Origin: an uncultured Mitsuokella sp. | GTDB taxonomy: Bacteria; Bacillota; Negativicutes; Selenomonadales; Selenomonadaceae | DNA: 64,000 bases | Direction of reading: 5' to 3' | NCBI GenBank assembly: GCA_945873115.1 | Contig: CAMCBT010000003.1 | Coordinates: 1-64,000, forward strand | Shown here: positions 54,284 through 56,717 of the stretch, piece by piece | How the letters are laid out: every line of letters begins with the position of its first letter | Position numbering within the stretch: the stretch's first letter is position 1 | Program-made: the position numbers and the translations under genes | Notes under the pieces: generated by a model | Database searches by the model: none | What the model saw: the letters and a program-made list of their open reading frames with translations, nothing else | Told to the model about the DNA's origin: nothing

Positions 54284-55573
54284 TTACAGCACGCGCCCAT
54301 AGCGCATGACAATCTCGCCGTCCACCACCGTCAGCACAGGCTTGCCCTTGAGCTCCCGCCCGATAAAGGGAGAGTGCACGCCCTTCGTGTAGAACTTCTT
54401 GGCGTCCACCGTCCAGACAAGCTCCGGGTCGATGACCGTGATATCGGCCGCCGCCCCCTCGTCGAGGGTGCCAGCGTCGAGCTTGAAGGCCCGGGCCGGC
54501 CCCGTCGTCATGCGCTCGATGAGAAGCGGAAGATCGACCTTCCCCTTGTGGACGAGATCCGTGAAGAGCACCCCCACCGCCGTCTCAAGACCGGGAAAGC
54601 CCGAGGGCGCATACATGTACTCCCGATCCTTCTCCTCCGGCGCATGGGGCGAGTGATCCGTGACGATGGCGTCGATGGTGCCATCCAGAAGGCCTGCCAA
54701 CACCGCGTCAACATCCTTCTGCTCCCGCAGCGGCGGATTGATTTTCGTGGAGCTATCGGATAGCTCTACGGCATCATCTGTCATGGTCAGGTGCTGGACA
54801 GTGACCTCCGCCGTTACCCGCACGCCCCGCTTCTTGGCCTGGCGCACGATGTCCACGGCGCCTGCGGAGCTGATATGGGCCACGTGGACCCGGGCCCCGG
54901 CGTACTCCGCCAGGAGCACATCCCGGGCCGTGGCGATATCCTCCGCCACGGTGGGCCGTCCCTTCATGCCCAGCATGGCGCTCCGAGCCCCCTCGTTCAT
55001 GACGCCCGCCTCCACGAGGCTCGTCTCCTCCTCGTGGTTGATGATGACCTTGTCAAAGGGGATGAGATAGTCGTAGGCATTCAGCAGCACCTTCGCGGAG
55101 GGGTCGAAGTGACCGTCGTCGGAAAAGGCCACGGCTCCGGCCTCTGCCATGTCCCCGAGCTCGGCGAGCTCCTGGCCCTTCTGGCCCTTCGTCACGGCGC
55201 CGATGATGCGGATGTGGACCTTCCCCACCTCCTGGGCACGAGCCTCCATGCTGCGCACGAGGGCTGCCGTATCCACCACAGGGGAGGTGTTCGGCATGGT
55301 GGCAACGGTGGTGAAGCCACCGGCCGCCGCAGCGCTGGAGCCGGAGAGGAAATCCTCCTTTGCCTCCTGTCCAGGCTCCCGGAAGTGCACGTGCATGTCG
55401 ATGAGCCCCGGCGTGACGAGCTTCCCCGCTGCGTCATAGATCTCATCGACCCCCTCTGCCGGCAGATTCTTTCCGACCCTCTCGATGCGGCCTTCGGCAA
55501 CCAGGACATCGGCGATTTCATCGAAGGACTGGGACGGGTTGATGACCCGGCCCCCTTTTATCAATAGCCTCAC
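54284..55573 (-). CDS. pyrC: Dihydroorotase (class I type)
   Basis: This 429-residue zinc amidohydrolase closes carbamoyl aspartate to dihydroorotate. The motif DMHVHFREPGQEAKEDF (about residues 58-74) holds the metal-binding HxH, and later DDGH, NHEEE, HISSAG and TDHSPHAP hold further ligands. The start is GTG 55573, overlapping the pyrB stop in GTGA. Confidence 0.97.
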   Translation of the reverse strand: MRLLIKGGRVINPSQSFDEIADVLVAEGRIERVGKNLPAEGVDEIYDAAGKLVTPGLIDMHVHFREPGQEAKEDFLSGSSAAAAGGFTTVATMPNTSPVVDTAALVRSMEARAQEVGKVHIRIIGAVTKGQKGQELAELGDMAEAGAVAFSDDGHFDPSAKVLLNAYDYLIPFDKVIINHEEETSLVEAGVMNEGARSAMLGMKGRPTVAEDIATARDVLLAEYAGARVHVAHISSAGAVDIVRQAKKRGVRVTAEVTVQHLTMTDDAVELSDSSTKINPPLREQKDVDAVLAGLLDGTIDAIVTDHSPHAPEEKDREYMYAPSGFPGLETAVGVLFTDLVHKGKVDLPLLIERMTTGPARAFKLDAGTLDEGAAADITVIDPELVWTVDAKKFYTKGVHSPFIGRELKGKPVLTVVDGEIVMRYGRVL

Positions 55574-56517
55574 TCGGATTTCCCTCCCATCAATACGAGA
55601 ACAAAGAGCGCCATGCGGACGGCGACACCGTTCTGGACCTCCTCCTGAATGGCGGAGGAGCTGCTGTAGGCCACAGGGGTCGCTATCTCCCAGCCCTTGT
55701 TCATGGGGCCGGGGTGGAGCACCAGCACATCCTCCTTTGCAAGGCGCAGCCGCTCGTCATTCAGCCCGAAGATGCGAGCGTACTCCCTCGTCGTCGGGAA
55801 GAGGCCTCCCTTCATGCGCTCCAGCTGGATGCGCAGCACCTCGATGACATCCGCCCCGACGATGGCCTCCTCGATGCGGTCATGGACGAAGACGCCAGGG
55901 ATGTCCCGGAGGAACCGGGGCAGAAGCGTCCGGGGACCTGCAATATGAACCTCCATGCCCATTTTCGTCATGCCGTGAATATCCGACCGGGCCACGCGGC
56001 TGTGGAGCACATCCCCGAGAATAGCCACCTTCAGCCCCTCCAGCCGTCCCTTCTTTTCCTGGATGGTGAAGAGATTCAGGAGGCCCTGAGAGGGATGCGC
56101 ATGGGCCCCGTCACCCGCGTTCAATATGACTGGGCTCACGATGCGAGAGGCATACTCCGCCGCTCCCTCCGCCTTGTGGCGCATGACGATGGCATCGAAG
56201 CCCATGGCCTCCACCGTATAGAGGGTATCCCGGAGGCTCTCCCCCTTCACGATGCTCGAGGAGCTGGCCGCGATATTCACCACGTCGGCTCCCAGGTATT
56301 TGCCCGCCAGCTCGAAGGAGGTGCGAGTGCGGGTCGAGGGCTCATAGAAGAGCGTCACGATGGCCTTGCCCCGCAGTGTCGGCACCTTCTTGATGTCCCG
56401 ATGGATGATGGACTTCATCTCCTTCGCCGTCTCCAGCACCAAGAGGATTTCCTCCTTCGAGAAATCCTCCAGCCCGAGGATGTTCTTTCCCCGCAGGGAT
56501 ATGGTGTTTTTCCCCAA
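55570..56517 (-). CDS. pyrB: Aspartate carbamoyltransferase catalytic subunit
   Basis: This 315-residue enzyme commits carbamoyl phosphate to pyrimidines. The carbamoyl phosphate-binding motif STRTRTSFELAG lies near residue 60 and HPSQGLLNL near 140. It is TTG-started (56517), with AAAGGAG 9 bases upstream. A pyrI regulatory subunit gene is not in the cluster. First gene of the operon. Confidence 0.97.
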   Translation of the reverse strand: MGKNTISLRGKNILGLEDFSKEEILLVLETAKEMKSIIHRDIKKVPTLRGKAIVTLFYEPSTRTRTSFELAGKYLGADVVNIAASSSSIVKGESLRDTLYTVEAMGFDAIVMRHKAEGAAEYASRIVSPVILNAGDGAHAHPSQGLLNLFTIQEKKGRLEGLKVAILGDVLHSRVARSDIHGMTKMGMEVHIAGPRTLLPRFLRDIPGVFVHDRIEEAIVGADVIEVLRIQLERMKGGLFPTTREYARIFGLNDERLRLAKEDVLVLHPGPMNKGWEIATPVAYSSSSAIQEEVQNGVAVRMALFVLVLMGGKSE

Positions 56518-56552
56518 ACCACTCAGCTCCTTTGATACGTCCCGCCTTGCCT

Positions 56553-56657
56553 ATAAAAAAGAGCTTCCTCATGCGATAAAAAGGCATAAGAAAGCTCCTT
56601 GCATATTTTATTCGTAAGGCTCCCTTTATGCGCATCGCAGTACGCATCTTAAAAAGG
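56553..56657 (-). promoter_or_regulatory. pyr operon leader attenuator with mutually exclusive hairpins
   Basis: Minus-strand leader. A 14-bp terminator hairpin (56584-56597 with 56561-56574, two G-U pairs, 9-base loop) is followed by TTTTTT. Its 5' arm can instead pair with 56619-56631 (12 bp with one bulged A), a plausible antiterminator. That arm is in turn sequestered by a hairpin at 56623-56657 (two 5-bp segments, 5-base bulge), a plausible anti-antiterminator. A ribosome site (AAGGAG, 56600-56595) and ATG (56587) lie inside the terminator arm and open an 81-codon frame ending at 56342. The sensor is unknown; no PyrR consensus was seen. Confidence 0.7.
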
Positions 56658-56688
56658 CGTTTTCAATCGGATCTCGTCCGTTTCGTGT

Positions 56689-56717
56689 ATTATACCCTAC
56701 TTCCTGGAGAAAAGCAA
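56689..56717 (-). promoter_or_regulatory. pyr operon promoter
   Basis: TTGCTT (56717-56712) and a perfect TATAAT (56694-56689) are separated by 17 bases. The leader is about 165 bases to the pyrB start. Confidence 0.8.

Follow-up and report, generated by a model that had tools for sequence, protein, structure and literature searches.

The enteric pyrBI operon has a genuine leader peptide, pyrL, and the ribosome translating it has to keep up with RNA polymerase (PMC5021804). For the PyrR attenuator, the other closely related system, Bacillus subtilis work summarised in PMC7430163 reports that the top of the upper stem of the hairpin matters for PyrR binding. We analyzed the leader of a pyr operon in a 64,000-nt stretch of DNA from an uncultured Mitsuokella sp. 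(hereafter, the window), and the element found there is very probably a Bacillus-type transcription attenuator under PyrR control, in which the upper stem has been rewritten. This reading is based on mutually exclusive folds, conservation and covariation, homology to canonical leaders and the presence of pyrR in the genome. The gene order of the operon is pyrBC-carAB-pyrKDFE with pyrB first; the names beyond pyrB were given by reading the translations. The features ahead of and around the start of pyrB are as follows.

56689..56717, minus strand: probable sigma-70-type promoter, TTGCTT at 56717-56712, a 17-nt spacer and TATAAT at 56694-56689, read from the sequence.
56668..56680, minus strand: small 5' hairpin, CGGACGAGATCCG, seen in the leader folds.
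56623..56657, minus strand: anti-antiterminator, the putative PyrR hairpin, assigned from an RF00515 local match, a canonical-only model, covariation and a homologous position in relatives.
56619..56631, minus strand: 5' strand of the antiterminator, shared with the 3' strand of the PyrR hairpin and pairing with 56595-56584.
56584..56595, minus strand: 3' strand of the antiterminator, shared with the 5' arm of the terminator.
56555..56598, minus strand: intrinsic terminator, with arms 56598-56584 and 56574-56560 and a U tract at 56560-56555 (U6).
56342..56587, minus strand: 81-codon frame opened by an AUG in the arm of the terminator, unconserved in relatives and not considered a gene.
55570..56517, minus strand: pyrB (aspartate carbamoyltransferase), with the SD AAAGGAG at 56533-56527 and a TTG start, assigned from the ORF list, gene order and relatives.

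The TATAAT promoter and three overlapping helices that the initial annotation had placed here were all confirmed on the minus strand. The -35 element TTGCTT is weak, and a consensus promoter scan did not list this promoter; the whole TTGCTT-17-TATAAT arrangement is identical in the upstream region of the nearest relative, L031. Downstream of it, the 145-nt leader folded at -46.5 kcal/mol against a mean of -33.1 for shuffled sequences (z -4.0; none of 200 shuffles was as good). The antiterminator consists of 12 bp with one bulged A, and the computed folds showed that it and the intrinsic terminator are mutually exclusive. In the minimum-energy folds of growing transcripts, the hairpin formed first, followed by the antiterminator (RNA ends from about 56583 to 56568) and then by the terminator (from about 56562), and a leader fragment from which the 3' arm of the terminator was removed adopted the antiterminator fold. 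The terminator had been described as perfect; a terminator with U6 is indeed present, and the adjective is slightly too strong because the stem contains several G-U pairs.

A small hairpin near the 5' end of the transcript with the loop sequence GACGAGA, which lies at 56680-56668 in the window, recurred in leaders L033-L049, L060 and L062, and the S. ruminantium leaders are similar. In addition, loci L033-L049, L042, L058-L061, L105 and L109 have a second promoter-like sequence (TTGAAA...TATAAT) between the attenuator and pyrB, which is absent from the window. This site overlaps an inverted repeat, for example TTATACA-TTAATAT-TGTATAA; such a promoter would bypass the attenuator, and the site might serve as an operator.

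The hairpin at 56657-56623 has a lower stem (CCUUU/AAAGG), a purine-rich internal bulge, an upper stem (AUGCGUA/UGCGCAU) and a CNGNGA hexaloop, CUGCGA at 56640-56635, closed by the pair A56641-U56634, and it lies between a promoter and the start of a pyr gene. A search of the whole 64-kb window with Rfam at gathering scores gave no match. The initial annotation had stated that the leader matches neither the pyrBI nor the PyrR systems; in a permissive local scan, however, RF00515 (PyrR binding site) aligned end to end with the hairpin at 41.3 bits (E 1.2e-4 for 261 bases), below the curated cutoff of 54. The window hairpin departs from the strict consensus ARUCCNGNGAGGYU in the uppermost part of the upper stem, the part reported to be important for PyrR binding (PMC7430163). 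Whereas a canonical hairpin of the same family reads AUUGGUC[CUGUGA]GGCUGAU, that of the window genome reads AUGCGUA[CUGCGA]UGCGCAU: the CNGNGA loop pattern is retained, as are the U-G and R-Y pairs, the closing C-G is replaced by A-U, and the adjoining pairs are exchanged with compensation. Since both the strict consensus and the curated Rfam cutoff were missed, we classed the element as a divergent variant instead of a standard member, and the same deviation from the textbook consensus explains why its PyrR identity was overlooked initially. The annotation had added that a conserved PyrR site elsewhere would reassign the element; such a site is provided by the anti-antiterminator itself.

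With filters off, the 64-kb window was scanned with a covariance model, R2, built from canonical hairpins only, mostly of other families in the phylum. Its top match was the window hairpin, at a modest score (17.5 bits, E 0.08), the runner-up scoring 12.3 bits. In A-U leaders of other species R2 picked the homologous position with E values of 4e-4 to 0.24, and its matches to the A-G form of S. bovis type and to the L070 form were weaker (E 2-5). RF00515 matched only L060 and L063 in the multi-locus set, and gave no match in L044 or L047, two other A-U leaders with a longer spacer. Model R1 found a single site in the window's genome.

The upstream regions of pyrB were then compared among 80 related loci and some whole-genome loci, and a hairpin was present at the homologous place in nearly all of them. 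The hairpins form a graded series, with the canonical form at one end (Anaerovibrio, Schwartzia, Pectinatus, Megamonas and oral Selenomonas), the A-U form at the other (Mitsuokella and Selenomonas ruminantium), and as intermediates L063, with a C-G closing pair and a U-A second pair, and Selenomonas bovis, with A-G closing and U-A. The hexaloop CNGNGA and the U-G pair stay fixed. Both the upper stem and the terminator stem showed the covariation in pyrB leaders that had been proposed as a check, at levels above those of shuffled and slid alignments. Among 36 distinct hairpins, upper-stem covariation was 0.599 against 0.197 for shuffled and at most 0.083 for slid alignments, and both sides had changed in six of the seven pairs; for 21 distinct terminator stems the value was 0.308 against 0.198, with 6 pairs changed on both sides. 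The antiterminator duplex was retained in 61 distinct leaders (mean -12.1 kcal/mol, -6.0 for shuffled sequences), and it was stronger in the A type (-14.2 kcal/mol) than in the canonical type (-10.8). Judged by the graded series, the covariation and the canonical-only model, the window element is homologous to the canonical PyrR leaders of its relatives.

Pattern searches of 398 genomes of the phylum found the canonical pattern in 279 and the A-U pattern in 15. Five of the latter (G000, G012, G018, G089 and G183) look like real sites, and all five belong to the Mitsuokella/Selenomonas family. The other ten look like chance matches and were discounted, because the CCUUU...AAAGG frame is missing from them and a reversed-pattern control matched several genomes too. 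On a pyrB tree the A-U label required 5 changes by parsimony, and the supported branches are compatible with one origin. The A-U hairpin is a family-restricted variant of a known attenuator. Among the papers searched, nothing useful was found about Selenomonas PyrR or variant hexaloops.

PyrR is encoded in the window's genome (G000:C1:80442-80963), with a score of 255 bits against a cutoff of 138, and the protein was aligned with solved PyrR proteins. The motifs [TV]RI[AS]HE and RGHRELPIRAD[YF]VGK[ND]VPT, which hold RNA-contact residues known for B. subtilis PyrR, showed nothing that distinguishes A-U from C-G genomes among 20 PyrR proteins from both RNA types. Among the sampled genomes, G003, G014, G019, G032 and G056 had neither a PyrR match over the cutoff nor an RF00515 site, and those with PyrR and without an Rfam site were mostly variant-hairpin genomes.

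The initial annotation had also pointed to AAGGAG and an ATG in the 5' arm of the terminator, opening an 81-codon frame into pyrB, and had proposed that a ribosome loading there would block the terminator. Both elements are present (AAGGAG at 56600-56595 and ATG at 56587, with 7-nt spacing), and U-rich stretches lie nearby, as would suit a coupling like that of enteric pyrBI, in which a ribosome at this site would trail a UTP-starved polymerase and prevent the terminator from forming. In the relatives, however, neither frame, start codon nor ribosome site is conserved. In L031 the frame carries a one-base shift; elsewhere its length ranges from 4 to 183 codons, and its end falls between 266 nt ahead of the pyrB start and about 400 nt or more into the gene; no constant purine run precedes the AUG, which in Anaerovibrio is replaced by GUG with the pairing kept. 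Because the frame is not conserved and the letters that are conserved around the AUG are those that the two competing helices require, the translation hypothesis is unsupported, and a leader ORF or ribosome site in the terminator was rejected on this comparison. As the PyrR-type hairpin accounts for the rest, we consider translation coupling extremely unlikely.

It is likewise very unlikely, if marginally less so, that the leader descends from a PyrR attenuator and now senses something else, such as a small molecule or a small RNA. The closing pair is altered, even to an A-G mismatch in S. bovis-type leaders, and no matching change in PyrR was seen; yet the loop and the U-G pair have stayed fixed, as continued binding by PyrR would predict, the protein is retained in the genomes with variant hairpins, and the sampled genomes lacking PyrR also lack RF00515 sites. 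The departure from the consensus and the sub-threshold Rfam score could also be expected of a decaying, non-functional relic, to which we give next to no chance: the changes are compensated and not random, the A-type antiterminator is the stronger one, and many species within the group share the variant form. It is well supported that the pyr operon has a three-state attenuator, presumably one that responds to pyrimidines, and this much of the earlier proposal stands; its suggestion of an unusual kind, a small RNA- or translation-based switch, does not, given the homology to PyrR sites, the PyrR gene and the unconserved leader frame.

Other arrangements were seen at the pyrB leaders of relatives. 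In all 14 oral Selenomonas genomes examined (the genus of G010; L194-L207, also L072, L074, L076, L086, L093, L101, L104 and L106), the PyrR attenuator contains a leader ORF of 23-33 codons. Its AUG is preceded at 6-7 nt by AAGGGAG or AAGGAG, supplied by the 3' strand of the hairpin itself, in 13 of the 14; the distance is greater in L203. The ORF crosses into the terminator and mostly ends just before pyrB, and its stop and the pyrB start overlap (AUGA) in L194 and L203. A block SVYPILE varied at third codon positions only among the 10 alignable ORFs, a small sample. These features suggest that a translated leader, apparently under selection, may operate under PyrR control in oral Selenomonas; a PyrR switch with a translated leader would be an unusual combination. 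The window's genome lacks a counterpart of this ORF. In L107 and L110, some 100 nt ahead of pyrB, AAGGAG is followed by a comparable leader ORF (MKEITIELAHNF...); the hairpin there is ATTGCC[CCGTGA]GGCTAA, and C-G replaces the U-G pair. In L064, pyrB is separated from the expected place of the attenuator by a 414-aa transposase-like ORF (169-1413; judged IS110-like by eye), and the genome of this locus (G028) has an RF00515 match some 1.6 kb upstream of pyrB. Ahead of pyrB in L059, the PyrR hairpin is partially duplicated in tandem in its 5' half (CACAAGAGAATATCGCCCTTTAAATGCGT twice).

By analogy with the PyrR paradigm, on which the following steps are modelled (PMC7430163, PMC4347634), we infer that UMP/UTP acts as the signal and that PyrR binds the altered hairpin. 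With UMP/UTP in good supply, UMP-bound PyrR would hold the hairpin 56657-56623, so that its 3' strand could not pair with the 5' arm of the terminator; the free arm would allow the terminator (56598-56560) to form, and transcription would stop ahead of pyrB. When pyrimidines are scarce, PyrR would release the RNA, the antiterminator (56631-56619 with 56595-56584) would form, and RNA polymerase would continue into pyrBC-carAB-pyrKDFE. It is also possible, although we lean slightly against it, that in Mitsuokella and Selenomonas the core of the PyrR hairpin was rewritten (C-G to A-U, even A-G) with PyrR visibly unchanged and the antiterminator strengthened; PyrR would then read the loop and the shape and not the closing pair, or would have shifted its specificity.

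The drifted form would explain an apparent gap, namely genomes that have PyrR and seem to lack an Rfam site, where the standard model misses it. Since these hairpins vary naturally, and with compensation, at an RNA contact surface, they could be used to test which bases PyrR really needs, and the practical gain would be better annotation of pyr regulation in the Mitsuokella/Selenomonas family.

Compared with the known systems, the locus resembles enteric pyrBI (pyrL) in having a terminator before pyrB and a frame across it; unlike there, the frame in the window is unconserved and a PyrR-type anti-antiterminator is present. It differs from the PyrR attenuator (RF00515; B. subtilis pyr operon) in its A-U closing pair, in the compensated exchanges of the neighbouring pairs, in a score below the Rfam cutoff, in an antiterminator extended by GCAU/AUGC pairing, and in the location of pyrR away from the operon start with one site in the genome. 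With that system it shares the position before a pyr gene, the three mutually exclusive helices and a pyrR gene in the genome, as well as the lower stem CCUUU/AAAGG with its A-rich internal bulge, the hexaloop CNGNGA and the U-G pair.
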